DNA of 38,266 bases from Candidatus Saccharimonadota bacterium. Lineage in GTDB: Bacteria; Patescibacteriota; Saccharimonadia; Saccharimonadales; Saccharimonadaceae. The notes beneath the pieces were generated by a model, which had not been told where the DNA came from, made no database searches, and was given only the letters and a program-made list of their open reading frames with translations. Below, one piece after another: positions 2,375-30,488 of this stretch (positions are counted from its first letter, which is position 1; every line of letters starts with the position of its first letter). The position numbers and the translations under genes are program-made. The stretch spans positions 1 to 38,266 of the forward strand of contig JAFWIP010000011.1 in assembly GCA_017514805.1 (NCBI GenBank), read 5' to 3'.

Positions 2375-2401
2375 TTAGCACTCTTGCATTTCGAGTGCTA
2401 A
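2375..2401 (+). promoter_or_regulatory. CIRCE operator (HrcA site) upstream of clpC
   Basis: A perfect TTAGCACTC - 9 nt - GAGTGCTAA inverted repeat matches the CIRCE consensus bound by the heat-shock repressor HrcA. The 9-nt loop TTGCATTTC is identical to that of the second CIRCE before clpP. No hrcA gene is in this window, so the regulator itself is inferred. Confidence 0.95.
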
Positions 2402-2412
2402 TTTCATATAAT
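2384..2412 (+). promoter_or_regulatory. clpC promoter, -35 inside the CIRCE loop
   Basis: TTGCAT (2384-2389) and TATAAT (2407-2412) are separated by exactly 17 nt. The -35 hexamer is the first six bases of the CIRCE loop, so a bound repressor would cover it. Only 6 nt separate the -10 box from the ATG at 2419, which predicts a leaderless transcript. Confidence 0.85.
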
Positions 2413-2418
2413 AGGGGT

Positions 2419-3756
2419 ATGGTAGATGAATTTAGTGAAATTATGAACCATCTCAGCGAAAATGCACGCTTTGCGTTGCAAAAAGCTGATTTCTATTCTA
2501 AACGCTACAACCAGGGTTATATGGGTACCGAGCATCTCTTGATGGGCATCATGGCTCAGGATACTTCGACTGGCGCCAAAATCCTTAGCAGCGAAGGCGT
2601 CGATCTTGACCAGATTGAGCGCGCTCAGGGTAAGGTTGCAGTAGATGTTCCGGCGGCACCAATGGCGATGATGTCACTTTCCGAGGCGACCGTATTAACG
2701 CTGCGCATGTCACTAAATTTCGTCAAAGAAAATGGCCTCGATATTGTTGGAACAGAGCATATTGTTTATTCGCTTTTGCGCCAACCAAATTCTCGTGCGA
2801 GCGTTCTGCTCAGTCAGCTCGATGTCGATTTGGATAAAGTCGCAAACGATATTGAGGAATTAATCGAAAAACAAGCCGACGAAGCGAAACTAGAAAAGCA
2901 AAAGTTGCGTGCTGGCAAACGTCCAACTTTTCGCTGGCTCAATAAATTCGGCACAGATTTAACCGAAGAAGCAAAGCAGGGCAAACTTGACACTGTAATT
3001 GGTCGCGACCAAGAAATCGAGCGCGCCGTCACGGTGCTTTGTCGCCGAACGAAATCTAACCCAGTTCTGATTGGTGAAGCCGGTGTTGGCAAAACCGCAA
3101 TTGTCGAAGGTCTCGCGATGCGTATCGCGAAGAATGATGTGCCGGGTGCTTTGATTGGTAAGCGCATTTATCAAGTCGATCTTAGCTCAGTCGTTGCAGG
3201 CACGAAATTCCGCGGCGAATTCGAAGAGCGCATTAAAGGTATTATTGACGAAGCCGTCAGTAATGACGACGTAGTATTATTCATTGATGAGCTTCACTTG
3301 CTCGCTGGTGCTGGTAGCGCTGAAGGCAGTATGGATGCAGCGAATATTTTGAAGCCAGCACTTGCGCGTAATCAGCTCAAACTGATTGGTGCTACGACGC
3401 TCGATGAATACCGCAAAAATATTGAAAAAGACAAGGCGCTCGCACGTCGCTTCCAGACCGTTATTGTTAATGAGCCTTCGCCAACGATTACGCTGCGTAT
3501 TTTGAAAGGTATCAAGAAACATTACGAAGCCCACCATCAGGTCACGATTTCCGATGAAATACTCCAGGAGGCGATTAATCTCTCTGAGCGTTATATTTCT
3601 GACCGCTTTATGCCGGACAAAGTCATCGATGTTATCGACGAGGCGAGCGCGATTGCGCGTGTCTCGTTGGACAAAGCAGGTGCCAGTATCTATAAAAAGA
3701 ACAAAATTGAGCTTGCTGACTTACAAGAAAAAATCGAAGCTGCGGCCGAAAAATAA
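2419..3756 (+). CDS. clpC: ClpC ATPase, N-terminal part (Clp-N and first AAA+ domain), ended by in-frame TAA
   Basis: This is the first half of the Hsp100 unfoldase that feeds substrates to ClpP. Residues 1-150 hold the Clp-N repeat domain ([20 protein letters not shown]). Walker A GEAGVGKT is at about 219-226 and Walker B VVLFIDEL near 285. The frame stops at TAA 3754-3756 after 445 residues, exactly where ClpC proteins continue with a Gln before the UVR-like D-Y-E-K-A-A motif. The following codons (3757 onward) continue the family sequence in the same frame, so a single CAA-to-TAA change explains the break. ATG 2419 is chosen as the start because it fits the promoter; a GTG at 2395 lies inside the operator. 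The fragment may be a real truncation, a read-through product or a sequence error. Confidence 0.9.
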
Positions 3757-4893
3757 GATTACGAAAAAGCTGCCGAGTACAAAACTCGTGCTGCCAAACT
3801 TGAGGGTGAAATTAAGAAACTCGAAAAAACTAATAAGGATCTTGCTAAGGCGCCGGCCGTCACGAGCGATAATCTCGCGACTGCAATTAGCCTAAAAACC
3901 GGCATTCCAGTTAGTCGCGTGCGTGGTTCCGAGCAGGAATTACTCATTAATCTCGAAAAGCATCTTCAAAAAGAAATCATCGGTCAAGACGCTGCAATTA
4001 AGGCGACCGCAAAGGCAATTCGTCGTGGTCGTTCTGGTATTGCAGATATTCACCGTCCAATTGGCTCATTTATCTTTATGGGGCCAACTGGTGTTGGTAA
4101 AACTGAACTCGCTAAGACGATTGCACGCGAGGTGTTTGGCGGCGATGATGCGCTGATAAAGATCGATATGTCCGAATTTGGCGAGAAGCATAATGTTGCC
4201 CGTCTCGTAGGTGCGCCAGCTGGCTATGTTGGTTATGAAGATGGCGGTAAGCTTACTGAGCAGATCCGTCGTCGCCCATATTCCGTCGTGCTCTTTGACG
4301 AAATCGAAAAAGCCCACCCAGAAGTATTTAATATTCTCCTTCAAATTCTCGAAGATGGTACTTTGACTGACGGACAGGGTACAAAGGTAAAGTTTAATAA
4401 TTCGATTATCATTTTAACGAGTAACCTTGGCGCTGAGGATATGTATCGCGAGTCCGAGATGGGCTTCGCCGCGAAGACTAAGCACGACGCGAAGGAACTT
4501 GCAGCCGAACATGACGCAAATGAGGCCGCTGCGATGAAGGCATTGCGCAAACTTATGCGTCCAGAATTAGTAAACCGCTTTGATGCGATTGTTACCTTTA
4601 ACGCACTGAGCGAAAAGAATGTTGAGGCTATTTTTGCAAATATGATTGAAGATCTCAAAAAACGCCTCGCAACAAAATCGATTGGCCTTGAAATCACGCC
4701 CGCCGCGAAGAAACATCTTATTGAAAAAGGTTATGATCCGAAGAATGGCGCACGCCCAATGCGTCGCGTTATTGAAGACGAGATTGAAACTCTGCTTGCC
4801 GATAATATTCTTTCCGGCAAACTAAATAAAGGCGATATCGCGAAAATTGAGTACAAAAAAGGCGATTTTTCGCTCGTCAAAGCCCGCGAATAG
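3757..4893 (+). CDS. clpC: ClpC ATPase, C-terminal part (UVR/M region and second AAA+ domain)
   Basis: This continues the preceding fragment in frame after the TAA. It opens with the UVR-like motif DYEKAAEYK and a short coiled coil, then the second AAA+ domain: Walker A GPTGVGKTE (4081 onward), Walker B VVLFDEIEK (4285 onward) and the C-terminal D2-small domain (NGARPMRRVIEDEIE). With the N-terminal part the total is 824 residues, a normal ClpC length, so nothing else is missing. If translated independently the first candidate start is GTG 3919, which has no convincing Shine-Dalgarno and would lose the M region. It stops with TAG. The D2 sequence shows no decay, which argues for a recent mutation, suppression of the stop, or a base-call error. 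Confidence 0.9.
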   Translation, partial: DYEKAAEYKTRAAKLEGEIKKLEKTNKDLAKAPAVTSDNLATAISLKTGIPVSRVRGSEQELLINLEKHLQKEIIGQDAAIKATAKAIRRGRSGIADIHRPIGSFIFMGPTGVGKTELAKTIAREVFGGDDALIKIDMSEFGEKHNVARLVGAPAGYVGYEDGGKLTEQIRRRPYSVVLFDEIEKAHPEVFNILLQILEDGTLTDGQGTKVKFNNSIIILTSNLGAEDMYRESEMGFAAKTKHDAKELAAEHDANEAAAMKALRKLMRPELVNRFDAIVTFNALSEKNVEAIFANMIEDLKKRLATKSIGLEITPAAKKHLIEKGYDPKNGARPMRRVIEDEIETLLADNILSGKLNKGDIAKIEYKKGDFSLVKARE

Positions 4894-6570: not shown

Positions 6571-7932
6571 ATGGCAAAAACTAAAGCAAAATTTGTTTGC
6601 CAAAATTGTGGCACGAGCTATACGAAGTGGGCAGGGCGCTGCGAGAATTGCGGCGAATGGAATACTCTGCTCGAACAAGAAGTGCCGACCGAGGCGGAAG
6701 CAAAATCCGCCCTCGCACGCGGGGCAGTTTCTGGCAAGAAACTCGTCGCCGTTTCAATTAATGAAATTGAACCATCCGACGCCGGCAGTCGTTTGAAGAC
6801 TGGCTTCCCAGAACTCGACAATGTTCTCGGCGGCGGGATTTTGCTGGGCGGCGTCGCTTTACTTGCGGGCCAGCCTGGTATGGGCAAATCAACGATTTTG
6901 ATGCAGATTTGTGCGACAGTTTCTAATAATGGCCGCAAGGTGCTCTATGTTTCCGGCGAGGAATCGGCTGGGCAGGTCAAGATGCGCGCGATTCGTCTCG
7001 GTGCTAGCTCAGATCAACTTCATTTCGCCAGCTCCTCGTCTGCGAACGATATCGCCAAAACGATTGAAGAAGATGGCTACGACCTTGTTGTTGTCGACTC
7101 GATTCAGACCTTAATGATGGCAGAGATTTCTTCGGCGCCAGGCACAGTTAGTCAGGTTAGCAACTGCGGTAACCTCATTATTCGTGCTGCTAAAGCTAGC
7201 GGCACGGCCGTAATTATTGTTGGCCACGTCACGAAGGACGGCACGCTTGCTGGACCAAAAGTTCTCGAGCATCTCGTTGATGTGGTGATGAATTTTGAAG
7301 GCGACCGCTACGGCGGTTTCAAGACTATTCGCGCCGTTAAGAACCGCTTCGGCTCTACGACGGAAGTTGCGATTTTCGAAATGGCGAGCGAAGGTCTCGT
7401 GGAGGTGAAGAATCCATCCGAAGCCTTGCTTTCTGAACGTCAAAATACAGATGGCAGTATTATTATGGCGACGATTGAGGGTACGCGTCCGCTTCTCGTG
7501 GAAATTCAGGCACTCGTTAATCCAACAAATTACGGTTATCCAAAGCGTACAGCATCTGGTTTCGATTTGAATCGTCTAAACTTACTTATCGCAGTGCTCG
7601 AAAAACGCACTAAGCTCAAACTTCAGGACAAGGATATTTTTATCAACGTTGTTGGCGGCATGAAACTGAATGACTCTGCCGCAGATCTTGCAATTTGCAT
7701 GGCGATTGCGTCGGCCGCGGCCGGCCGCAAACTCGACGACAATCTCGTTGTCTTTGGCGAGGTTGGCCTCGGCGGGGAAATCCGTTCCGTTATCGCTCCA
7801 GATCGTCGCATCGCCGAGGCAAAGAAACTCGGCTTCAAGAACGCCATCGCGCCCGCGACCGTAAAGGATAAATTCGTCCTCCCGGTCAAAGACCTCCGCG
7901 ACGCGCTGATCAAATATATGAATAATAAATAA
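6571..7932 (+). CDS. radA: DNA repair and branch-migration protein RadA
   Basis: A 453-residue RadA/Sms: RecA-like ATPase that promotes branch migration during recombination and helps integrate incoming DNA in competent cells. In order: a C4 zinc finger (C10, C13, C24, C27), RecA-like core with Walker A GQPGMGKST near residue 100, the RadA-specific KNRFG motif at 257-261, and a Lon-protease-like C-terminal domain (INVVGGMKLNDSAADLAI). A strong Shine-Dalgarno (GGAGGTG) precedes ATG 6571. It follows clpP in the same direction and is probably co-transcribed. No anomalies; stop TAA. Confidence 0.96.
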   Translation: MAKTKAKFVCQNCGTSYTKWAGRCENCGEWNTLLEQEVPTEAEAKSALARGAVSGKKLVAVSINEIEPSDAGSRLKTGFPELDNVLGGGILLGGVALLAGQPGMGKSTILMQICATVSNNGRKVLYVSGEESAGQVKMRAIRLGASSDQLHFASSSSANDIAKTIEEDGYDLVVVDSIQTLMMAEISSAPGTVSQVSNCGNLIIRAAKASGTAVIIVGHVTKDGTLAGPKVLEHLVDVVMNFEGDRYGGFKTIRAVKNRFGSTTEVAIFEMASEGLVEVKNPSEALLSERQNTDGSIIMATIEGTRPLLVEIQALVNPTNYGYPKRTASGFDLNRLNLLIAVLEKRTKLKLQDKDIFINVVGGMKLNDSAADLAICMAIASAAAGRKLDDNLVVFGEVGLGGEIRSVIAPDRRIAEAKKLGFKNAIAPATVKDKFVLPVKDLRDALIKYMNNK

Positions 7933-7956
7933 TATTGTAATAAACACAACATTTTA

Positions 7957-7983
7957 TCGTGCTAACGTATAGACAAAGCACGA
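7957..7983 (+). repeat. Short hairpin after radA
   Basis: TCGTGCT and AGCACGA arms (7 bp, 13-nt loop) without a T-tract. It may be a weak radA 3' end structure. Its right arm is part of the 15-bp repeat described next. Confidence 0.4.
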
Positions 7984-7989
7984 GCGGAA
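7975..7989 (+). repeat. Left copy of 15-bp inverted repeat flanking the giant surface gene
   Basis: AAAGCACGAGCGGAA; its exact reverse complement is at 13961-13975, just past the terminator of the giant gene. Confidence 0.7.
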
Positions 7990-8018
7990 CCTTAAAATAT
8001 AAATAAGCATTTAAAAGT

Positions 8019-8071
8019 GGAGTGTAATGTGAAAGAAAGAAAACGCAACGTTTTTTAGCGTTCGACGTATC
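8019..8071 (+). other. Disrupted translation start of the giant surface protein
   Basis: GGAG (8019-8022) is spaced 6 nt from GTG 8029, which reads KERKRNVF and then hits TAG (8056-8058) directly after a run of six T (8051-8056). Dropping one T, or a +1 slip of UUU on UUUU, joins it to the long frame as ...NVF-SVRRILSAVFAASF, a proper basic signal-peptide start. Alternatively ATG 8027 is already in the long frame, but its second codon is TGA. Without one of these events the long frame can begin only at TTG 8072, which lacks a ribosome binding site and a basic n-region. Confidence 0.7.
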
Positions 8072-11000
8072 TTGTCCGCAGTTTTTGCGGCGAGTTTTGT
8101 TGTGGCGCTACTGGGCACGATTGGTGCCTTCGCGGGGGCAAATTTATTTAAGATTCAAGATGCGAAGCTCAGCGAACTATCAGCAGGTGCCACGGGCGCA
8201 ATCTCCACTTTTGACGAAACAAACATCGAAAGCAATGTTACATTCCACAAACTAGATGACTCCGCAAAATATACTATTACACTCAAAAACACAGACTGCA
8301 AAGATCATATTATCCAATCAATTACCGACGACAACGACAACCCTTATGTCTCTTACGAGTACAGCTCCTATGCTAATACGCTCGTCAAAGCCGGTGATTC
8401 TATTGACTTCATCGTAACAGCAAAGTATGCCAATGCCGTAACGGATAAGAATGCTCGCGCTCAAGCTACGAACGTAAAATTCTTCCTTAAGTTCGCGGAC
8501 ATCGATGAGCCAGAAGAACTCGCAATCGCTCCAAATACTGGCGACAACATTATGACGAGTGTTGTTGTCCTCGCTATTTCAGCGGCGGGTCTCATTGTCT
8601 GCGCGCTCATTGCAATTAAGCGCAATAAAAAGCACGCCAAAGTCTTTGTCGCCGCTATCGTTGCAGTTTCCGCAGTAGTCGCGACCGCAAGCGTTCATGC
8701 TGCTAAGGTTGAGACTAATAGTATTTCTATTACGTCAAACTATGGTCTCTATGACAAAGTTGCTATTACTTGGACTGATGCTAATGGTGACGAACACGAA
8801 GAATTCGTTCCATACAATGAACCAGCTAATATCCCAGATCAAACCAAACCTGGTCATACCTTCACTGGTTGGGAAGACGAGAATGGTAATCCAGTAGATC
8901 TAACCGAACCAATCACTGATGATCTAAATATTCATCCAACCTTCCGTGCTCATAAATATACGATTAAGTTCAACGGTAACGGTGCAACTGGCAGCATGGA
9001 TAGTATTGAGATGACCTATGGCGAAACTAAGACTCTTCCAGCAAGTGCCTTTAGTTTCTTGGGCCGTACTTATGCTGGCTGGGATACCGAAGCAAATGGC
9101 TCCGGCGTTCATCATGATGACCAGGCTGAAGTAAAGAACCTCACTACCGAAGATAATGGCGTAGTTACGCTCTATGCTCAGTGGTCAATTAATCCGTTCT
9201 ATATCAACTACGAGGGTAACGGTGCAACGAGTGGGGAAATGGCGACCACGAACTGTGAATACGACCAGAGCTGTATTCTGCGCGAGAATGCCTTCAAGAA
9301 AACTGGTTACCACTTCATTGGCTGGAAATATAACAACAATGACTATACCGACAAAGCCGATGTAACTAACATTATTGAATCCGGCACAATTACGATGGTT
9401 GCACAGTGGGCGGTCAATCACTATACAATCGTCTTTAACATCAATACTGATGACGCAAACGCTTCCGGTACTATGGCGGATATGGCTAACCTCGAATACG
9501 GTACAGAATATTCACTAACCGCCAACGCCTTTACGCGTACGGGATATAACTTTGATGGGTGGAGCACTGAAGTTGACGGTCATAGTTATAGTCTTACGGA
9601 TGCGCAATTATTCCGCAATCTCACTACCGTAGATGACGATATTGTTACGCTCTATGCGCAGTGGGTGCCGATTCATTATAATATCGTCTTCCATCAAAAT
9701 CATGACGGCGTTGCTGGTAGTACGAACTCGATGACGAACGTTGCTTATAACGAGACGAGAACTCTCTCACAGAACGGCTTTGCGCTCGAGCACTACAAAT
9801 ATATGGGCTGGAATACTGCCACTGACGGCACTGGCACTCCATACGAAGACGGCGCAAGCATTAAAAATCTCACTACAACTGACGGCGCAACAATCGATCT
9901 CTACGCACAGTGGAAAGAACGCACCGCAATGCTTGATACTGGTGCAAATATCAATAAAATCATGCGCGAGCAATTTACCGATGCAATCACCTTCTCGCAT
10001 TACACTGCTGGTGAGCCAGATTTTGAAACCATCACTAATGAAGTAGATATCGCTCTTCCAACTTCAAACTTCCCTGTCTATGCTTGGGTTGACAATGGCA
10101 ATCTTTATTGGTGGTCTGAAGCCGATAAGCCAACAATGAATGTAAACTCCGCCAACTTCTTCAACGGCGTTCATAATGCTGGCACTGCGTCAGCACCAAA
10201 TAATGTTGCCAATAGCCTATCGAAACTCGAATCTATCGATATGACCGGCCTTGATGCTAGTGCCGCAAAAGATATGACTCGTTTGTTTGCAAATACCAAA
10301 GCGCTTAATAGTCTAAACCTTAGCGACTTCGATTCATCTTCCGCAACAAATATGGATGGTATGTTTTATGGTACGGCCCTAAAGAATGTTGATCTCAGTC
10401 TTATTGAGGCTGGCAATGTAACCTCTATGGCTAGCATGTTCCAGAGCACGAAGTTTGACGCTCTAGACTTTAGTAACTTTGATACTCATAACGTAAAACT
10501 CATGTCTAACATGTTTACTAGTGCTGTCATGACTAATCTTGACCTCAGCACACTCGATACTTCGTCCGTCACGAACATGGCAAACATGTTTAAGTCCTCG
10601 AATATTACCACGCTTACATTCTTTGATACGGAAAATCCAACCGCTACCAAGTTTGATACGAGCAAAGTCACGACTATATCTGAGATGTTCCGCGAATCAA
10701 AAACTAAGACACTCGATCTTTCGCAATTTAATACATCCGCAGTTACAAATATGTATGGCGTATTTTATAGTGCGGCTGTCTCAGATCTTAATGTCTCAAA
10801 TTGGGACACCAGTAATGTGACGAGTATGTATATTATGTTCTTCGCTGCGGCAAACCTCACCAGTCTTAATTTAAGTCACTTCAACACCGCCAAGGTTACG
10901 AATATGCAGCAAATGTTTGACAGTACGACCAAGTTGAAATATCTCAATGTTTCCAACTGGTCAAACGACAAAGTTACGAATATGAGCTACATGTTCCAGG

Positions 11001-13921
11001 ACGTAGGTAGAGGAACGGCTGGTGAAGTAACGATTGTCTTTGATGGCTTCAAGACTCCGTCGGTGACTAATATGACCAGAATGTTTGCTAGATATAACGA
11101 TCACAACCTCAAGGTTCTTGACCTCAGCAGTTTCGACACCTCCAAGGTAACTAGCATGGGCACCATGTTTGGTGGTGGACGACAAGACACAATGATTCAT
11201 AATGCAATGTTCGATACTATCTACGTTAGCGATAAATTCACTAATGCTGGCGTAAGTCCTACAACTGAAGTATTTAACAGAACATCAACTGTAATTGGTG
11301 GTGCTGGCACCACTTGGAGTCAGGATCATATGACTGCGGATTATGCTCGTATCGACGATCCAGACAACGGTGAACCAGGCTACTTTACGCTCAAGGATTC
11401 TATCTACGTCCGCTATCATGGCAACGGCTCCGATGATGATTCTTACGAAATTATGTCAAGCTACTATGTTTCGACTGCTGAGCCATATGACGTTAAGCTT
11501 AAGCCGAACGCATTTGTGAGGGAAGGCTACAAGTTCATGGGTTGGGCAACTAGCGCAAATAGCACGACCGTTGCCTATGCTGACGGCGCTGCGCTCGAGG
11601 GGCTCACGGCTTCCAAGACTCCGCTTGAACTCTATGCGGTTTGGAATAAGATCGAAGCAATCTTTAACTCCAATACTAGCAGCACGCTTAATAGTATTCA
11701 TAGCACCAATTCGGACGCTTCAAAGTTTAAGAAATATCCTAACGGTCAACCAAGTGATGAGATTATTGCAACTGCAACCGATGTTTCGCGAACTGATGAT
11801 CCGATTTGGGTTTGGCCAGATGGCGAAAATATCTACTTCTGGAGCGAAGACCCAGTTCCTTCGTTCCCATCAAATATGGGATCATTCTTCATGGGTTCAA
11901 TGATGACTGAAATTGACCTCAATGGCACCGATGCGGATGTCACCAGTCTGTACTGGACTTTCGTGAATGCTTACTCGCTCAAGAAGATAGATTTTGGCGA
12001 CAACTTTGATACGAAGCGAAACACGAACATGTCTGGAATGTTTGGCTACGCATACGCACTTGAAACTATCGAATTTGGCGACAAATTCAGCACTGAAAAT
12101 GTCACTGATATGTCGTGGATGTTTAATAGCGCTCGTAGCTTGAAGAGTGCAGATATTGCCTCGTTTGATGTATCGAAAGTTAAGAATATGTCGTATATGT
12201 TTACAAATGGCGGCGGTCTTGAGGATCTTGATTTAAGATCCTGGAATACTGCTTCGCTCACTGGTAGCGGTCTTGTTTCGACTTTTGGATCATCGCGTAT
12301 TAAGAGTATCCAATTCGGCGAGAACTTTAATACAAATAATGTCACTAGTATGGCTAATACCTTCTACGGCATTAGAGCAACCTCACTTGATGTCAGCATG
12401 TTTAACACCGAAAAAGTTACGACTATGGCCGGTATGTTCTCTGGTTCCGCTATGACTTCTTTGAATCTTAGCAACTTTAGCTCTGCCGTATTGCAAAATA
12501 TGGATAGTATGTTTAAGGGTATGGGTAATCTCACGAGCATCACTTTTGGTCCAAACTTTACAGCCGAAGGTGTCACTAATATAGCTAGCCTATTCGATGG
12601 TGCTTCGAGTATAGAGTATCTTGACTTGACTGGCCTACATATTCCAGCCCAAACAAATATGAACCGCACTTTCATGGATATGCATAAGCTAAAGACGCTA
12701 GATATTACCGGATGGGATCTTACGCATGTTACCAACACCAGCAATACCTTTGCAAACGAAAAAGTCGTAGAAACAATCTATGCTTCGAGCGAATTCTTGC
12801 CAGAAAACTTACCTTCAGGCGGATTTGAATTTGGCAACTGGACGCTTGGTGGTCATCTTGTTGGTGGCGCCGGCACCGCATGTACTACCAATGTTAGCGG
12901 CGTCTATGCTCGTATCGACGACCCAGACAACGGTAATCCAGGCTACTTCACCGAGAAAAATGCACGTTATATTCGTTATGATGGCAACGGTGCAGATAAC
13001 GCTGAGTATGAAACTATGACAAGCCACTACCTAACTAATACGGGTTCGCTGAAGGCTAATGCGTTTGTACGAGACGGTTATGCATTTGATGGCTGGAATA
13101 CGGCAGCTGATGGCTCTGGCGCAAGCTATACTGACAAGCAGGTCATGAGCGAATTGACTGAGTCTAAGACCCCACTAACGCTATATGCGATGTGGTATCA
13201 AGACAAGGACTTCAATGGAACTGTTAGCTTAACGCAACAATATAGCTCTGCTGATGTCTTGCAGCTTTCGGCTACTATGCCGCAAGGTTATGTCGGTGCC
13301 GCCTACTTTAATCCGGCCAACCTAAAAGAAAGATGTAGTGCTACTTCAACAAATGTTGCGGATAAGGAAGCAAAGAATGGCTGTATGAAGTGGTATATCT
13401 ATGGCGACGACGGTACGAATTATAAGATGCTGCTTGATCATAATACTACAGCAAGGATTTCCTTTAACTCTAGTAATAATAATTCCAACCCGCAGGCGCT
13501 ACTAAATCAACTAAGCGCAGATACAGCAGATTGGGATGCGAATAATCTAACCATAGATATCTTTACTGCGAATGAGGTTGCTGCAATTGCGGGTATTAAT
13601 CCGTTTAATGTGAGTGGAAATACGGCTTCAACTGGTAAGTATTATCCGCTGGACACTCACGAAATAAACAGCACGGATGGTAGGGGTAGAAGTGCGCATG
13701 CGTGGATGTATGATTATACGCAGGATTGCGAGACGCACGGGTGCGATTACGAGATGAATAAGGGGTATGGCTACTGGACTAAGACTGCACTCGGCGGTAG
13801 TAGTAAAGAGGCCTGGCTAATAAACTACTTTGGTCGTTTAACTATTACTAAGGTTGATCTCGCAAACTGGGGTATTCGCCCAACAGTTACGATTTCAAAA
13901 TCTCTCGTTAATGCCGAGTAA
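8072..13921 (+). CDS. Giant BspA-like / InlB-repeat surface protein
   Basis: The open frame is 1949 residues. An N-terminal hydrophobic signal (residues 2-22) is followed by a small beta-rich domain (25-150), then PNTGD at 154-158, a membrane segment (161-182), a basic stretch KRNKKHAK, and a second signal-peptide-like segment ending VHA near 210. Next come about five InlB/Flg_new-type repeats (G-Y/H-F-x-G-W ... L-Y-A-Q-W) to about residue 620, a DUF285/BspA leucine-rich-like block with recurring V-T-N-M-x-x-M-F, another Flg_new repeat, a second DUF285 block, and a third Flg_new. The C-terminal domain (about 1710-1949) has no anchor and ends in IRPTVTISKSLVNAE. A module of 521 codons is repeated (YARIDDPDNG at 11342 and 12905). 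The fold family is used in adhesion to host or partner cells; that role here is inferred. The start is uncertain (see 8019-8071). Confidence 0.9.
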   Translation: MSAVFAASFVVALLGTIGAFAGANLFKIQDAKLSELSAGATGAISTFDETNIESNVTFHKLDDSAKYTITLKNTDCKDHIIQSITDDNDNPYVSYEYSSYANTLVKAGDSIDFIVTAKYANAVTDKNARAQATNVKFFLKFADIDEPEELAIAPNTGDNIMTSVVVLAISAAGLIVCALIAIKRNKKHAKVFVAAIVAVSAVVATASVHAAKVETNSISITSNYGLYDKVAITWTDANGDEHEEFVPYNEPANIPDQTKPGHTFTGWEDENGNPVDLTEPITDDLNIHPTFRAHKYTIKFNGNGATGSMDSIEMTYGETKTLPASAFSFLGRTYAGWDTEANGSGVHHDDQAEVKNLTTEDNGVVTLYAQWSINPFYINYEGNGATSGEMATTNCEYDQSCILRENAFKKTGYHFIGWKYNNNDYTDKADVTNIIESGTITMVAQWAVNHYTIVFNINTDDANASGTMADMANLEYGTEYSLTANAFTRTGYNFDGWSTEVDGHSYSLTDAQLFRNLTTVDDDIVTLYAQWVPIHYNIVFHQNHDGVAGSTNSMTNVAYNETRTLSQNGFALEHYKYMGWNTATDGTGTPYEDGASIKNLTTTDGATIDLYAQWKERTAMLDTGANINKIMREQFTDAITFSHYTAGEPDFETITNEVDIALPTSNFPVYAWVDNGNLYWWSEADKPTMNVNSANFFNGVHNAGTASAPNNVANSLSKLESIDMTGLDASAAKDMTRLFANTKALNSLNLSDFDSSSATNMDGMFYGTALKNVDLSLIEAGNVTSMASMFQSTKFDALDFSNFDTHNVKLMSNMFTSAVMTNLDLSTLDTSSVTNMANMFKSSNITTLTFFDTENPTATKFDTSKVTTISEMFRESKTKTLDLSQFNTSAVTNMYGVFYSAAVSDLNVSNWDTSNVTSMYIMFFAAANLTSLNLSHFNTAKVTNMQQMFDSTTKLKYLNVSNWSNDKVTNMSYMFQDVGRGTAGEVTIVFDGFKTPSVTNMTRMFARYNDHNLKVLDLSSFDTSKVTSMGTMFGGGRQDTMIHNAMFDTIYVSDKFTNAGVSPTTEVFNRTSTVIGGAGTTWSQDHMTADYARIDDPDNGEPGYFTLKDSIYVRYHGNGSDDDSYEIMSSYYVSTAEPYDVKLKPNAFVREGYKFMGWATSANSTTVAYADGAALEGLTASKTPLELYAVWNKIEAIFNSNTSSTLNSIHSTNSDASKFKKYPNGQPSDEIIATATDVSRTDDPIWVWPDGENIYFWSEDPVPSFPSNMGSFFMGSMMTEIDLNGTDADVTSLYWTFVNAYSLKKIDFGDNFDTKRNTNMSGMFGYAYALETIEFGDKFSTENVTDMSWMFNSARSLKSADIASFDVSKVKNMSYMFTNGGGLEDLDLRSWNTASLTGSGLVSTFGSSRIKSIQFGENFNTNNVTSMANTFYGIRATSLDVSMFNTEKVTTMAGMFSGSAMTSLNLSNFSSAVLQNMDSMFKGMGNLTSITFGPNFTAEGVTNIASLFDGASSIEYLDLTGLHIPAQTNMNRTFMDMHKLKTLDITGWDLTHVTNTSNTFANEKVVETIYASSEFLPENLPSGGFEFGNWTLGGHLVGGAGTACTTNVSGVYARIDDPDNGNPGYFTEKNARYIRYDGNGADNAEYETMTSHYLTNTGSLKANAFVRDGYAFDGWNTAADGSGASYTDKQVMSELTESKTPLTLYAMWYQDKDFNGTVSLTQQYSSADVLQLSATMPQGYVGAAYFNPANLKERCSATSTNVADKEAKNGCMKWYIYGDDGTNYKMLLDHNTTARISFNSSNNNSNPQALLNQLSADTADWDANNLTIDIFTANEVAAIAGINPFNVSGNTASTGKYYPLDTHEINSTDGRGRSAHAWMYDYTQDCETHGCDYEMNKGYGYWTKTALGGSSKEAWLINYFGRLTITKVDLANWGIRPTVTISKSLVNAE

Positions 13922-23520: not shown

Positions 23521-23527
23521 ATAGATT

Positions 23528-24964
23528 ATGGCAACTCTAAAAGATTTTCGCGATGAAAGAATTCGCAAACTAAATGAATTAAAAGAAGCAGGCGTCGATC
23601 CGTATCCTGCACATTCCAATCGCGATACAAAGATTGGTGATATTTTAGAGAACTATGATTCTTATGCTGATAAAGACGTTTGTGTAGCTGGCCGTATTGC
23701 TAGTATTCGTAGCTTCGGCAAGCTCGCATTCGTCGTCGTCGAGGACGACTCTGGCAAGATTCAGGTCTTTTTGAAAGATGATGCTGCTAAATTCACTAAG
23801 AAATTAGACACTGGTGATTTTCTTGAAGCAGCTGGCAAAGTTGGGCAAACTAAAACTGGCGAAATTTCGGTATTTTGCGACATGCCTAGACTATTAACGA
23901 AGGCTTTGCGTCCACTTCCTGGCCGTGATGGTTTCACGAACAAGGAAGAGCGCTTGCGCCGTCGTTATGTCGATATGGCTGTTAACCCAGAAGTACGCGA
24001 ACGTTTCATTCGTCGCAGCAAATTCTGGACCGCAACTCGCCAGTTTTTGAATGATCATGGTTTCGTCGAGATTAATATTCCAGTTCTCGAGACTACGACC
24101 GGAGGCGCCGATGCAAATCCGTTCGTTACGCATATGGATGCGCTTGATCAGGATTTCTATCTCCGCATTTCGCACGAGCTTCCGTTGAAACGTCTTATCG
24201 GCGGTGGCTACGAGAAGGTCTACGATATTGGCGTCCGTTTTCGCAATGAAGGCATGGACGAGGAGCATCTCCCTGAGCATATCGCAATGGAATCCTATGC
24301 TGCATACCAAGATTACAATGACGGCATGGATCTTTATGAAGAAATGATTAAATATGTCTGCAAGGAGACTTGGGGCACGCTTCAATTCGAGCATGACGGC
24401 ATGAAAGTTGATCTCGATTGCAAGTGGCCACGTATTAGCTATGCAGATATTATCAAGGACAAGTTTGATATCGACGTCTTTAACCCTGACCTCGATAAAA
24501 TTAAATCTATTCTCCGCGAAAATAAAGTAAAATACGACGATTCGATGGGTGCTGGTCGCTTACTCGATTATCTTTGGAAGATTATTCGCAAAGAATCTGC
24601 TGGTCCATTCTGGCTCATTCATGAACCGGTCGAGTTGTCTCCGCTAGCAAAGAAGCACGAGGCTGACCCGCGCGTTACTGAACGCTTCCATCCAGTTATC
24701 TTCGGTACTGAGATGGGCAATGGTTATTCTGAGTTGAATGATCCGCTTGATCAGCTCGAGCGCTTCCAGGAGCAGCAGGCAATGCGCGATGCTGGTGACG
24801 ATGAGGCGCAGATGCTTGATATGGACTTTGTCGAGATGCTCGAATATGGCATGCCACCAACTTGTGGCTGGGGTAACTCTGAACGTAATTTCTGGCTATT
24901 CGAGGGCGTGTCTGCTCGCGAGGGCGTTCCATTCCCGCCAATGCGCCGCGACAGCGAAGAATAA
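23528..24964 (+). CDS. lysS: Lysyl-tRNA synthetase, class II
   Basis: A 478-residue enzyme that attaches lysine to tRNA-Lys. The N-terminal OB-fold binds the anticodon (VAGRIASIRSFGKLAFVVVED). The class II core follows: motif 1 near VEINIPVLETTTGGADANPF, motif 2 VRFRNEGMDEEHLPEHIAME, and a C-terminal motif 3 that reads GWGNSERNFWLFEG in place of the usual G-x-G-I-D-R. The motif 3 arginine is kept, but the surrounding residues are unusual; I do not know how widespread this variant is. The gene has a leaderless promoter and a terminator that overlaps the dprA promoter. Confidence 0.93.
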   Translation: MATLKDFRDERIRKLNELKEAGVDPYPAHSNRDTKIGDILENYDSYADKDVCVAGRIASIRSFGKLAFVVVEDDSGKIQVFLKDDAAKFTKKLDTGDFLEAAGKVGQTKTGEISVFCDMPRLLTKALRPLPGRDGFTNKEERLRRRYVDMAVNPEVRERFIRRSKFWTATRQFLNDHGFVEINIPVLETTTGGADANPFVTHMDALDQDFYLRISHELPLKRLIGGGYEKVYDIGVRFRNEGMDEEHLPEHIAMESYAAYQDYNDGMDLYEEMIKYVCKETWGTLQFEHDGMKVDLDCKWPRISYADIIKDKFDIDVFNPDLDKIKSILRENKVKYDDSMGAGRLLDYLWKIIRKESAGPFWLIHEPVELSPLAKKHEADPRVTERFHPVIFGTEMGNGYSELNDPLDQLERFQEQQAMRDAGDDEAQMLDMDFVEMLEYGMPPTCGWGNSERNFWLFEGVSAREGVPFPPMRRDSEE

Positions 24965-24980
24965 TTAAAACATATATATT

Positions 24981-25022
24981 AAAAGTGTCAAAAATAACAT
25001 AGTTATGCTTTGGCACTTTTTT
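24981..25022 (+). terminator. lysS terminator
   Basis: AAAGTGTCAAA / TTTGGCACTTT stem (one wobble pair) with an inner ATAAC/GTTAT hairpin and a long T-run. The TTGGCA of the dprA promoter is inside its right arm. Confidence 0.85.
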
Positions 25023-25037
25023 GTGTTGCGCTAAACT
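25010..25037 (+). promoter_or_regulatory. dprA promoter (leaderless)
   Basis: TTGGCA (25010-25015), 16-nt spacer, TAAACT (25032-25037), 6 nt before ATG 25044. Confidence 0.6.
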
Positions 25038-25043
25038 AAGCGC

Positions 25044-25916
25044 ATGAAATATCAAGAAACTACCATTAATCATCCATTTTTAGAAATATTAGAATGTTGC
25101 GGCGATAAAACTGAAGTAAAACAGCCTGTCAAAAAGCTTTGGTACCAAGGCTGACTACCGGAAGGTGAGCGCCCGCCAGTCGTGGCGATTGTCGGCTCGC
25201 GCCGCTGTACTCCTTACGGCGAGAATATTGCTTATCATGCTGCTTATGAGTTGGGAAAGCATGGGGTTATCGTGGTTAGTGGCTTAGCTTATGGGATTGA
25301 CTCGTGCGCCCACCGCGGTTGTCTTGACGCGGGCGGAATAACGTTAGCGGTTCTTGGCACTGCGATTAATCAAATTTACCCGCGTCGGAACTGTGGCCTC
25401 GCGAAAAGAATCTTAGAAAAAGGCGCAATTCTTTCCGAATATGCGCCAGATACTGAGATAAAAGCGTATTTCTTCCAGGTTCGTAATCGAATTGTATCTG
25501 GGCTAGCGGACGCAGTGTTGGTCGTTGAGGCGTCGAAAAATTCAGGCACGAAGGGCACCTATGATTATGCCGTCAAACAGGGCAAAAATATATTTGCGGT
25601 GCCAGGCGATTTATCGCGACCGATGTCGGCCGGAACTAACGAAATGCTGCGCGACGGAGCGAATCCGTATTTAGATGTTTCGGATATATTGATTAGTCTC
25701 GGTCGTAAAATGCCGGAACCAGCAAAGCCGGATATATCAAAGTTTTCAAGTATTACGCAGGATGTTTATTACGCAATTAAGAGCGGCATTCGAAATCCAG
25801 ATACGATAGTTGAGCGATTAAATATTGGCGTGATGGATTTTAATATTGCAGTTACGACTTTGGAGATGGATGACCTGATAGTTCAAGACGGTGCAGGCTG
25901 GACAATTTGCCCCTAG
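25044..25916 (+). CDS. dprA: DNA processing protein DprA, interrupted by in-frame TGA
   Basis: DprA loads RecA on single-stranded DNA taken up during natural transformation. The gene starts at ATG 25044, and the first 36 codons read MKYQETTINHPFLEI ... KKLWYQG. Then TGA (25152-25154) interrupts, and the same frame continues LPEGERPPVVAIVGSRR, matching the family junction between the linker and the Rossmann fold. After it, the DprA core is intact: GSRRCTPYGENIAYHAA, VSGLAYGIDSCAHRGCL and the GDLSRPMSAGTNEML region. A winged-helix-like C-terminal domain (YAIKSGIRNPDTIVERLN) ends the protein, about 290 codons in all. The longest uninterrupted frame begins at GTG 25182 but would omit the N-terminus and has no ribosome binding site. 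A CGA-to-TGA or GGA-to-TGA change would explain the stop. Confidence 0.85.
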
Positions 25917-25927
25917 AGCGATATGAT
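25899..25927 (+). promoter_or_regulatory. Predicted ldh promoter
   Basis: TGGACA (25899-25904), 17-nt spacer, TATGAT (25922-25927), overlapping the end of dprA. Confidence 0.45.
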
Positions 25928-25956
25928 ATAAGCATAAACGAAAAGGGCATCATCTA

Positions 25957-26868
25957 ATGGCAAATAAAGTAATGATTGTCGGTACTGGCAATGTTGGTAT
26001 GAGCTATGGTTTCGCACTCGTCCATCAACGTACCGATGTTAATGAATTAGTTTTAGTAGACATAAACACAGAAGACGCAGAGGGCGAAGCGATTGATTTA
26101 CGCGACTGTCTCGCGGTTGCTCCTAGCTACATGAAGATTAGCTCTGGTAGTTATGCTGATGCGGCCGACTGTGATCTTATTGTAATAACGGCAGGTGTTC
26201 CGCAGAAACCTGGCGAATCGCGCATGGATCTACTTAAGAAGAATGCTGCTATCTTCAAGGATATGATTGGCCAGATTATGGAGACCGGTTTTGATGGTAT
26301 TTTCCTAGTCGTTAGCAACCCAATGGATGTCCTAACTTATCTAACTTGGCGCTATTCTGGTTTGCCGCCAGAAAGAGTGATTGGCTCTGGTACGGTTCTT
26401 GATACGGCTCGCTTACGTTATCGTCTATCGCAACGCCTTCATATTCATCCAAAGAATATTCACGCCTATCAGGTTGGTGAACACGGCGATACGGAATTTG
26501 CTCTTTGGAGTTGCGCTAGTGCTGGCGGTCAGCCAATCATGGACCTCATTAATAATAACGACCGTGCCGAAATTGAAGATTACGCCCGCAAAGAAGCCTA
26601 TACGATCATCGAGAAGAAGGGTGCTACATATTATGGCATCGGCACTTGTCTAGCTATGATTACTAACTGTATTTTGAATGACGAAAATCGTATTTTGACT
26701 GTTAGTAACTACGATGAGCTTAGCGATACTTACAATGGTTATCCGGTTGTGCTTGGTCGCAATGGCGTTGTCCGTCGTCTAGGGCTTCAGATTTCGCCAG
26801 ATGAACAGATTAAGTTTAATAGTAGTATTCGCGCGCTTCAGCAGGCTATTAAGGAAGTCGCCGACTAG
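25957..26868 (+). CDS. ldh: L-lactate dehydrogenase
   Basis: A 303-residue NAD-dependent enzyme that reduces pyruvate to lactate and regenerates NAD+ in fermentation. The Rossmann glycine motif VGTGNVGMSYG is at 7-17. Gln in AGVPQKPGESR, rather than Arg, marks lactate rather than malate specificity. The active-site His is in VGEHGDTEFALW. It has a Shine-Dalgarno (AAAAGGG) 10 nt before the ATG, unlike its leaderless neighbours. It fits a fermentative, respiration-free metabolism, which is an inference from this one gene. Stop TAG, followed at once by a strong promoter. Confidence 0.95.
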   Translation: MANKVMIVGTGNVGMSYGFALVHQRTDVNELVLVDINTEDAEGEAIDLRDCLAVAPSYMKISSGSYADAADCDLIVITAGVPQKPGESRMDLLKKNAAIFKDMIGQIMETGFDGIFLVVSNPMDVLTYLTWRYSGLPPERVIGSGTVLDTARLRYRLSQRLHIHPKNIHAYQVGEHGDTEFALWSCASAGGQPIMDLINNNDRAEIEDYARKEAYTIIEKKGATYYGIGTCLAMITNCILNDENRILTVSNYDELSDTYNGYPVVLGRNGVVRRLGLQISPDEQIKFNSSIRALQQAIKEVAD

Positions 26869-26870
26869 TA

Positions 26871-26899
26871 TTGACAATATTACGAAAGTCTGCTATAAT
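26871..26899 (+). promoter_or_regulatory. Perfect-consensus promoter after ldh
   Basis: TTGACA, 17-nt spacer, TATAAT: an exact match to the sigma-70 consensus, the best in the window. The predicted start is about 26905. Confidence 0.85.
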
Positions 26900-26905
26900 A
26901 TAAAT

Positions 26906-26953
26906 ATATACATTACTTCAAAGATAACCACCAAAACAGAGGTGGTTATTTTT
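26906..26953 (+). ncRNA. Candidate 48-nt small RNA
   Basis: The region between the perfect promoter and a strong terminator has no ATG or GTG start with a ribosome binding site. It is unpaired and A/T-rich for about 18 nt, then forms the terminator hairpin. It could instead be an attenuated leader of the PIN-TRAM gene, or the promoter could fire only through read-through. Inferred from the sequence layout only. Confidence 0.45.
26924..26953 (+). terminator. Terminator between ldh and the PIN-TRAM gene
   Basis: ATAACCACC / GGTGGTTAT 9-bp perfect stem with an 8-nt loop and TTTT. It also serves ldh. Confidence 0.88.
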
Positions 26954-26957
26954 GTGA

Positions 26958-26963
26958 TAGAAT
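26958..26963 (+). promoter_or_regulatory. -10 box of the PIN-TRAM gene (extended, leaderless)
   Basis: TAGAAT preceded by TGA (26955-26957), 6 nt before ATG 26970 and just after the terminator T-run. Confidence 0.5.
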
Positions 26964-26969
26964 ATAGAA

Positions 26970-27728
26970 ATGGAATTATTTATTATTATTTTACTATCGG
27001 CAATTTTTGCTGAGACTAGCGCGCTCACGGCACGCGAGTTAGCGCGAAAGCATGCGCCAGCCAAGAGCGCGCGTCGCAAGCTGTTCGTAGACACATCAAC
27101 TTTAATGGATGGCCGAATCCTTTCCGTCGCCAAAGCGGGTTTTCTTGGAGACGAGGTCCTAATTCCGCGTTCGGTAATTCGCGAACTTCAGCTTCTAGCT
27201 GACGGCGGTGATAGCGAGAAGCGTGCGCGTGCCCGTTTTGGCTTAGATATTGTAAACGAGCTCGAGCGCGTTGAGCTAGCTGACGTTAATATCTTCCAGG
27301 ATGAAGACGGGCGCGTGAAGGTAGACGAGCGCCTATTAGAGCTCGCGAAGGCTCATCATGGCATAATCCTAACAAACGATTTTAATCTTGCGAAGGTTGC
27401 AGCTACCGAGAATATCGACGCAATCAATATTAATGATTTGGCACAAGGTTTGCGCAGTGAATATTTGCCGGGCGACAAGTTAGATGTAAAAATTACGGCA
27501 GTCGGCGCAAATCCTCACCAAGGCATCGCGCATCTATCAGATGGAACGATGGTAGTAATCGATGACGCTGATCGCTATGCGGGAAAAAATCAAATGGTGA
27601 CGATTGAGTTTGTTCGCTATCTGCAGACAGCTGCCGGCAAAATGATGTTCGCAAAGTTAGCTACGCCAAAGCAGTCCAAGCCCAAAAAGACAACAGTTGG
27701 CCGTCGCCCTAGTCGAAATCGTAAGTAA
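26970..27728 (+). CDS. PIN-TRAM domain protein (YacL-like)
   Basis: A 252-residue protein with a short N-terminal hydrophobic segment (residues 3-14), then a PIN nuclease domain: Asp41 and Asp47 in FVDTSTLMDGR, and a later LTNDFNLA that supplies another acidic residue. A TRAM-like beta domain follows (PGDKLDVKITAVGANPHQGIAHLSDG ... VTIEFVRYLQTAAG), and the C-terminus is basic (KPKKTTVGRRPSRNRK). YacL relatives usually have four membrane segments; this one has a single short one. RNase activity is expected from the family but the RNA target is unknown. It ends against a bidirectional terminator. Confidence 0.88.
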   Translation: MELFIIILLSAIFAETSALTARELARKHAPAKSARRKLFVDTSTLMDGRILSVAKAGFLGDEVLIPRSVIRELQLLADGGDSEKRARARFGLDIVNELERVELADVNIFQDEDGRVKVDERLLELAKAHHGIILTNDFNLAKVAATENIDAININDLAQGLRSEYLPGDKLDVKITAVGANPHQGIAHLSDGTMVVIDDADRYAGKNQMVTIEFVRYLQTAAGKMMFAKLATPKQSKPKKTTVGRRPSRNRK

Positions 27729-27760
27729 AAAAATACCCCGCTAATGCGGGGATATTTTTT
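27727..27760. terminator. Bidirectional terminator between the PIN-TRAM gene and the PBP gene
   Basis: CCCCGC-TAAT-GCGGGG stem flanked by A-run and T-run, serving both convergent genes. Confidence 0.92.
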
Positions 27761-30488
27761 ACTTACTCCAGTTTACTGTCGTCGAGTAACCGCCAGTATC
27801 TGTTACGCGGACGGATGCGCTTGTTGGCTCTTCGCTGCTAACGTAGGTAATTGTGCCGCTAGTGCTGATTTCGCCGCTCTTTACGCCTGTACCGTTAACG
27901 GATAATGAATAGTTCTGTAGGTAATAACGGCCATTCGAGAGCGCCGCAGATACGGTCCAAGTGCCGTCATCGTTTGCGCTGACACTGATGCTTGCGTTAG
28001 GCTTTGCATCGCTACATTGATGGACGTCATCTTCGTTTTCCGTATCGTAGCCGCCGGCATAGAATACTTCCTTGCCAGTCATTGGATCAATCATCTTGGA
28101 AACTTCGACCTCGATACGAGTCTCTTCAGGAGTACAGTCAGTCGCCTTCTTCTTTGAGACGGAGTCAAACATCATCTTTTCATTCGAGATACCAGAAGAC
28201 TTCGACTTGTTATACCAGCTTGGCCAGATATCTGTTCTGCCATTGACGGCCATGTGTTGCATGCCAGCAGGCTCATTAATCTTATCGCCAGTCTTCCACT
28301 TGCCATCTGGGCCATAGACTTCCGCATGGATACGATCAATATATGCAGCACTAATATTAAACGCTACAGTGTGCTGGTCGCTTGAAAGTGCGCGGCCATC
28401 GTGATTACCGTTCCAGATTGCTGTTGCGACTACTGGAGAGTAAGTCATAACCCAGGAGTCTTTTGCTCGGCCGTTACCGTTATCAGTAGTACCAGACTTT
28501 GCGGCGAACCAGGTCTTGCTTAAGTTACCGAAACCGTTCGCAGTAGCGAGGCTACCAAATACGGCTCTACGAGATTGGACATCTGAAAGGATGCTGGTTG
28601 TCATGTAAGCGACTTGCTCATCTACGACACGTTCGCCCTCTGAGTCAGTCCAGCTTTCGATTACGTCGCCGGTCGCATTCTTGACTTCGAGAATGTAGGA
28701 CAATTCTTTATAGACGCCACCGCGCGCAAGTGTAGCGTAGGCGTTAGCATGCTCAACTGGGCGCACACCGCAACCACCACCGATGGCGGCAGATAGACCA
28801 GCGAATTCGCCGTTTGCGCAGTAGGAAAGGTCGCCTAATTTATGTGCGATATTGAGGCTATTTTCGATGCCATTAATATATAGGGCTTTGACGGCGCCAA
28901 TATTCAATGATCCAGCCAGTGATTGACGGATCGTAATATCGCCATAGAAACGACCGGAAGCATTACGTAGGCTACATTTTCCGGTATTGCCGGCGCAGTA
29001 GATTCTATCGATGTTCTCGTCTTTCAGGACTGTGCCAGGACCATAATTGACGCCCTCTCTCTGCATGAAGAGTGGAGTGTAATCGAGAATAGGCTTAATC
29101 GATGACGCTGGCTCGAGGAGAGAAGTAGCGGCATTAACCTGGCCGTAGCCAGCCTTGTTCCAGTCAGCGCTACCAACCATGGAGATAACTTGTGCCGTCT
29201 CGACGTCTACAGAGACGAGTGTTGCATTATCAGAGCCGTTAACGTAGAACCACTTTGAACCGTAAGCGACAGCCTCTTCGGCGATCTTTTGTGCGCGGTA
29301 ATCGAGTGTGGTCTTAATTGTGAAGCCGCCTTCACGCATTGTCTTGATGCCGTACTTAGCCTCGAGCTGGGATTTGACTTCGAGGACAAACCAAGGCGCT
29401 TTCATGCCGGCATACTGATCGGCTTCTGGCTTGATTTGTGCCAAGATATCTACAGCTTTCGCTTCTTCGGATTGTTCTTTCGTGATATAGCCCATGTCGA
29501 CCATAGCATCGAGAACGTACTTCTGACGTGCAATTAAATCTTTATGATACTGAGTATTATATGGATTGAAGCGGCCAGGGTTATTTGGAATAGCTGCAAG
29601 AAGCGAGGATTCTGCTAAGTCGAGATCTTTAGCGCTTTTGCCGAAGTAGGTCTGAGCAGCAGATTCAATACCGTTACGACGACCACCATAAGGCGATTCG
29701 TTGAGGTATAGCGTAATAATCTGCTCCTTGTCATACATTTTCTCGACTTCGATAGCGAGAATTGCTTCCTTAATCTTACGAGGAATACCGCCAATACCGC
29801 GGTCTTGTGCTTCTTCGGAGAAGTAAACCTGTTTGATGAGCTGCTGTGTAAGAGTAGAGCCGCCCTGAACCTGCTTGCCAGAAAGCGTACTGAACGTTGC
29901 GCGAATAAGAGCGCCAAAATCGATACCGATATGATTATAGAAGTTTCTATCCTCGGCTGCGACAGTTGCTTGGCGCATATAGGTGGAAATATCGCCGCCG
30001 TCAACGACTAAGCGATAATCGCCGCTACCTTTATCTTCCCAGAGCACTTCGCCGTTGCGGTCGAGATAGGTATTGACGGTGTCTTGGACGCGATTTGCGA
30101 GCTCTTGCGGATCAATTTCTGCCAAATCTTTCTTGAAGTAGAGGAAAAGGCCGCCAATCGCAATAATAATAAGTAAAATGAATGCGACAAAAATCTTTAA
30201 AAGACGAATCTGGTTTTCTTTAGAGAACCACCATTTAAAGAAGCGGTCTGGTCGCAAACGTGCCAAGAAACGCAAAAATGGATTCTTAGGTAATTTTGCT
30301 AGCTCCTCAGCTTTTTTGCGTGCGCGCTGATCTTGTTTAACGCGGCGCTTATAGGCGAGGTTAGAATACAAGCTCATGCCATTTTTAGAGCCAGTACGCT
30401 GTTTGCGGGCAGCCTTATCTGCCTTTTTCGACTCCATTTTTTTTGACACGGCTTTCTTGATCTTATTCGCAGTATTTTTCATAGCCAT
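27759..30488 (-). CDS. Class A penicillin-binding protein (transglycosylase/transpeptidase)
   Basis: A 909-residue bifunctional peptidoglycan synthase. The N-terminus is a 95-residue, strongly basic cytoplasmic tail, followed by one membrane segment (about 97-118). The glycosyltransferase domain carries the catalytic Glu179 in VAAEDRNFYNH and GGSTLTQQLIKQVYF. The transpeptidase domain has the SSIKP nucleophile motif, an SLN motif and the KSGTTDNG box. A beta-sandwich tail (about 820-909) with SxT-rich sequence follows. Start ATG 30488, with a -10 box TATAAT 10 nt upstream (30499-30504, minus strand) and no Shine-Dalgarno. Two nearby Met codons (positions 1 and 3) leave the exact start open. 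Confidence 0.93.
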   Translation of the reverse strand: MAMKNTANKIKKAVSKKMESKKADKAARKQRTGSKNGMSLYSNLAYKRRVKQDQRARKKAEELAKLPKNPFLRFLARLRPDRFFKWWFSKENQIRLLKIFVAFILLIIIAIGGLFLYFKKDLAEIDPQELANRVQDTVNTYLDRNGEVLWEDKGSGDYRLVVDGGDISTYMRQATVAAEDRNFYNHIGIDFGALIRATFSTLSGKQVQGGSTLTQQLIKQVYFSEEAQDRGIGGIPRKIKEAILAIEVEKMYDKEQIITLYLNESPYGGRRNGIESAAQTYFGKSAKDLDLAESSLLAAIPNNPGRFNPYNTQYHKDLIARQKYVLDAMVDMGYITKEQSEEAKAVDILAQIKPEADQYAGMKAPWFVLEVKSQLEAKYGIKTMREGGFTIKTTLDYRAQKIAEEAVAYGSKWFYVNGSDNATLVSVDVETAQVISMVGSADWNKAGYGQVNAATSLLEPASSIKPILDYTPLFMQREGVNYGPGTVLKDENIDRIYCAGNTGKCSLRNASGRFYGDITIRQSLAGSLNIGAVKALYINGIENSLNIAHKLGDLSYCANGEFAGLSAAIGGGCGVRPVEHANAYATLARGGVYKELSYILEVKNATGDVIESWTDSEGERVVDEQVAYMTTSILSDVQSRRAVFGSLATANGFGNLSKTWFAAKSGTTDNGNGRAKDSWVMTYSPVVATAIWNGNHDGRALSSDQHTVAFNISAAYIDRIHAEVYGPDGKWKTGDKINEPAGMQHMAVNGRTDIWPSWYNKSKSSGISNEKMMFDSVSKKKATDCTPEETRIEVEVSKMIDPMTGKEVFYAGGYDTENEDDVHQCSDAKPNASISVSANDDGTWTVSAALSNGRYYLQNYSLSVNGTGVKSGEISTSGTITYVSSEEPTSASVRVTDTGGYSTTVNWSK

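Follow-up and report, generated by a model that had tools for sequence, protein, structure and literature searches.

Two described systems come close to a surface gene in which a stop codon directly follows a homopolymer in the first codons. In the programmed +1 frameshift of prfB, the gene for RF2, a slippery codon stands directly before a stop, as CUU UGA, with a Shine-Dalgarno (SD)-like stimulator a few bases upstream, a shift site conserved among orthologs, and an autoregulatory logic. In homopolymer phase variation of bacterial surface genes, a long tract kept in relatives occupies the first codons and acts as an on/off switch through slipped-strand mispairing. The encoded product has a described counterpart as well, the PARCEL/DUF285 surface proteins (Roske et al. 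2010, PMC2996958).

Start of the giant surface gene and its relatives

We analyzed a giant surface gene, from a rumen-type relative of the Saccharibacteria, whose 5' end a first-pass annotation had likened to both systems. The window is the whole contig (C10, 38,266 bases) of a nearly complete, 881-kb genome in 11 contigs. The parts of the start region are as follows, with G008 the closest ortholog and G068 a more distant relative.

6571..7932, + strand: radA, the upstream gene (TIGR00416, 4.7e-166)
8019..8022, + strand: Shine-Dalgarno GGAG, by direct reading; the same GGAG and six-base spacer precede homologue starts
8027..8032, + strand: ATG then TGA, an alternative start that was rejected (in G008 it lies outside the frame of the ORF, and G068 has no ATG here)
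8029..8031, + strand: GTG start codon, six bases 3' of the GGAG; in both G008 and G068 it is conserved and opens the long ORF
8033..13921, + strand: giant surface-protein ORF, open after TGA 8030, with TTG 8072 as its first usual start
8051..8056, + strand: T6 tract after G8050, one T more than in G008
8056..8058, + strand: TAG ending the GTG frame after nine codons, by direct reading
8057..8134, + strand: signal-peptide-like region SVRRILSAVFAASFVVALLGTIGAFA in the long frame, judged by eye

The letters reported earlier for the GGAG, GTG 8029, the T6 tract, the TAG, and the out-of-phase ORF proved exact. From GTG 8029 the frame reads VKERKRNVF and then meets TAG 8056-8058, and the long ORF of 1,949 codons runs one base out of phase with it. 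The long ORF instead shares the frame of ATG 8027, where codon 2 is TGA 8030-8032; past this TGA, the first usual start in the long frame is TTG 8072, 13 bases beyond the TAG. Exact six-base A or T runs are common (980 in 874 kb of the genome), and the T6 tract alone therefore means nothing. A conserved ribosome-binding site and start lying one base out of frame with a large ORF is, as the orthologs indicate, not a chance arrangement.

The closest ortholog lies in Candidatus Saccharibacteria RGIG7560 from water-buffalo omasum (G008:C20), the nearest named relative found, and is 81% identical over the N-terminal part. It shares GTGGAGTGTAATGTGAAAGAAAGAAAACGCAACGTTTTT with the window letter for letter, amounting to 39 identical bases through five Ts, after which G008 continues as GGCGTGCGACG and the window, one T longer, as TAGCGTTCGACG. 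G008 lacks both the sixth T and the stop, and its GTG opens a frame of 1,912 codons. The peptide in the five-T frame is VKERKRNVFGVRRILSAVF in G008 and, past the break, SVRRILSAVF in the window; the proposal that five Ts would restore the frame was thus borne out, as this is exactly the frame of the ortholog. In the more distant relative (G068:C14, GTGGAGTGTAACGTGAAAAGAAAAAGG), the GTG is also in frame, with 1,406 codons, and AACGTG replaces the ATG. The assignment of GTG 8029 as the start, likewise made in the first-pass annotation, agrees with the in-frame position of the same GTG in both relatives.

Across the genus, about 38 homologues, including three from the window's own genome, have intact starts, many with the GGAG and six-base spacer. 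Among these homologues we found neither a common homopolymer tract nor a break of the T6/TAG type. Tract length and conservation of the TAG among relatives had been named earlier as a check, and the outcome, five Ts and no stop in G008 and no tract common to the roughly 38 homologues, spoke against conservation of either. Taken together, G008, G068, and the intact homologues place the gene start at GTG 8029, make the frame break private to the window assembly, and exclude the ATG-TGA reading; at the tract itself the argument comes mostly from G008 and G068. The string AAAGAAAGAAAACGCAACGTTTTT would serve to tell five Ts from six in same-species contigs, and no second same-species copy over 8051 was found.

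One homologue, locus L013 (G006:C20), carries a G7 run (GGGGAGGGGGGGT) in its first codons, which encode the signal peptide; as a candidate contingency tract, this run is more convincing than T6. In several relatives (L018, L025, L027, and L112), a different surface gene of the same family lies directly behind the radA 3' end, where the window counterpart is 7932-8029; the site looks as if it were a slot for surface-gene exchange.

The giant ORF encodes an N-terminal surface domain that includes hydrophobic segments as well as a PNTGD motif, followed by Listeria-Bacteroides repeats and then DUF285/PARCEL repeats (profile matches DUF285, 2.9e-82; Flg_new, 5.7e-37; TIGR02167 PARCEL repeats, 1.1e-56). 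It is under purifying constraint, with dN/dS of 0.07-0.09 over the first 500 codons, and shows no excess amino-acid change relative to G008. Judged by these comparisons, the ORF is free of decay apart from the T6/TAG break.

Explanations of the frame break

Rather than a conserved slip site or recoded codon, the break most likely reflects either a recent mutation of an ordinary kind or an error in the sequence. We put the probability at roughly 0.8 that the sixth T and resulting TAG are a private one-base insertion, real or a consensus error, as opposed to an evolved recoding or switching element. In such a case, the surface gene would start at GTG 8029 behind the GGAG, one extra T present in the window assembly alone would shift the frame, and ribosomes would make VKERKRNVF before halting at TAG 8056. 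The surface protein would then be absent or made at leak level only, and we infer from this that the gene is off. Continued expression of the gene by some means would also be compatible with the intact 1,949-codon ORF.

Whether the insertion exists in the organism is a question within this reading. An erroneous sixth T, arising in sequencing or in the consensus, with the gene intact in the organism, is a tentative but serious possibility at somewhat below even odds; assembly error had been named earlier as a refutation of the slip site. The error reading draws support from a second private lesion 4.3 kb away: clpC (2395-4893) carries an in-frame TAA mid-gene at 3754-3756, private to this assembly, where GAA or GAG, and thus Glu, stands in each of the 18 relatives read. 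The gene is intact in the genus, and natural loss of clpC is hard to believe. The clpC TAA poses the same question as T6, a real null allele or an error. On the other side, the aligned coding sequence of the window genome, about 266 kb with about 911 homopolymers of at least five bases, showed no frameshift, in a test that would miss breaks as near a start codon as T6. Private missense changes are not in excess in clpC, radA, pnp, or ftsK, and with this negative private-substitution test, generally poor contig quality was discarded as an explanation. In addition, a 4,461-base contig from another assembly (G062:C1) aligns to window positions 23527-27987 without gaps and with a single mismatch. 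On balance, we slightly favor a recent natural null allele over a consensus error.

That contig (L246), 99.98% identical to the window, sits in the assembly of another species, which has its own dprA copy (C3); G062 probably holds a contig of the window's species as contamination. A plasmid search and a viral_contigs pattern scan returned nothing.

The remaining explanations would keep the gene functional with six Ts. A true on/off switch, proposed earlier as a phase-variable tract, is unlikely. The location of the tract, among the first codons of a surface gene, is that of contingency tracts, and the G7 run of the L013 homologue occupies a similar place; however, five or six Ts is short, exact six-base A/T runs number in the hundreds in this genome, and the tract is absent or different in homologues. 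We consider it very unlikely that T6 is real and that the protein arises from ribosomes slipping +1 at UUU UAG or from slippage during transcription of T6. The UUU could re-pair one base on, in the geometry of a shifty stop, and the long ORF is otherwise intact. A stable hairpin at 8056-8110 begins exactly at the TAG (z -3.5 for 8056-8135), but its G008 counterpart is weak and no better than shuffles (z -0.6). Neither G008 nor G068 needs a shift, as both read through from the same GTG, and GAAAGAAAACGCAAC, which precedes GUU UUU UAG, contains by eye no AGGRGG-like or other SD-like stimulator. The prfB of the window genome is itself uninterrupted, without an internal stop. The earlier analogy to a prfB-like programmed shift was not supported. 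Transcriptional slippage on T6 is further disfavored because the runs in known bacterial cases are about nine A or T long (PMC5009743). Low-level adventitious slippage at T6/TAG may occur.

A restart of translation past the TAG, for instance at TTG 8072 with a shortened signal peptide, is highly improbable: this codon is in frame and 13 bases 3' of the TAG, but it has no SD, its use would cost the basic n-region (VRR), and G008 and G068 use the upstream GTG. Hardly credible is the alternative offered in the first-pass annotation, in which ATG 8027 is the start and TGA is read as sense. In its favor, ATG 8027 is in frame with the long ORF, and in-frame UGA occurs in the dprA of the genus; against it, ATGTGA is out of frame in G008, the ATG is missing in G068, and TGA functions as a stop in the window genome. 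The two orthologs rule this start out. A genome-wide code change, which would call for loss of TGA stops, a suppressor tRNA, and absence of RF2, was also rejected: the genome encodes both release factors, including RF2, TGA ends 20 of 182 conserved genes, and neither a UCA nor a CUA tRNA is among the tRNAs found. A search of the Saccharibacteria literature for phase variation, SipW, DUF285, or UGA readthrough found nothing relevant.

In-frame TGA codons in dprA

A far better recoding candidate than T6/TAG lies in the same window, namely candidate UGA-dependent expression of DprA.

25044-25916: dprA, with ATG 25044, in-frame TGA 25152-25154 (KLWYQG-TGA-LPEGER), and end 25916

The same TGA is present in the independent contig G062:C1, and in-frame TGA occurs in 19 of the 42 genus dprA copies read (loci L152-L180 and L231-L248 among relatives), each with it at one or two out of four alignment columns (3 copies at column 41, 11 at 43, 4 at 47, and 3 at 157). 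Neither TAA nor TAG occurs at any of the four columns in the 42 copies; elsewhere, columns 43 and 157 hold mostly Trp, Tyr, or Phe. The 36 codons 5' of the window TGA are under purifying selection (pN/pS 0.09-0.40 across eight copies, five of them stop-free in that stretch and three with TGA inside). In two further species, G067 and G004, reading dprA to its end takes a +1 shift at CTT TGA (HRGCL then DAGG), which is the shift sequence of prfB; the G004 copy also has an in-frame TGA. Within the sampled order, PF02481 matches with an in-frame TGA are confined to this genus; three matches elsewhere contain TAA. Alignments covering about 444 kb of relatives' sequence revealed no other gene with a convincing in-frame stop, with antisense frames set aside by eye; the lists of in-frame stops were filtered for antisense shadow frames, partly by eye. 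The dprA TGA was also considered as a third private lesion of the contig and rejected, as it is shared with relatives.

On the simplest reading, the genus would rely on leaky UGA termination, through readthrough or a +1 shift, to synthesize DprA, and this synthesis would respond to RF2 activity. A rival account holds that dprA is weakly selected and UGA mildly leaky, so that UGA accumulates by drift. Our literature search found no paper on in-frame UGA in dprA. Recurrence of UGA in dprA across the genus would link a protein of DNA uptake to how efficiently UGA terminates translation. It is a distant prospect that T6 is real and tolerated because a +1 shift at UUU UAG is frequent enough to supply the giant surface protein, which would add a UAG-dependent case beside dprA, a gene apparently expressed through UGA readthrough or CUU UGA shifting.

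Likeness to described systems

The T6/TAG site shares with prfB a slippery codon directly before a stop, where a +1 shift would bring the ribosome back into the long frame. It differs in having UUU UAG in place of CUU UGA, in lacking an internal SD-like stimulator, and in being unconserved. UAG is read by RF1, and for this reason the site lacks autoregulatory logic of the prfB type. With homopolymer phase variation it has in common the placement in the first codons of a surface gene, whereas the tract is too short and is not conserved. The encoded protein carries the same repeats as PARCEL/DUF285 surface proteins, with scores above the curated cut-offs (PF03382, 272.7 bits, cut-off 25; TIGR02167, 187.8, cut-off 30); unlike in those proteins, the repeats sit behind a Saccharibacteria-type N-terminal domain with the PNTGD motif and hydrophobic segments. 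Overall, the slip-site and recoded-codon readings fall, and a wrong annotation is avoided in favor of a start at GTG 8029 and a gene broken in this sequence. The closest match is an ordinary frameshift null allele, or a homopolymer consensus error, in an accessory surface gene, with the same single extra base in a short homopolymer, the rest of the ORF intact, and no notable difference.
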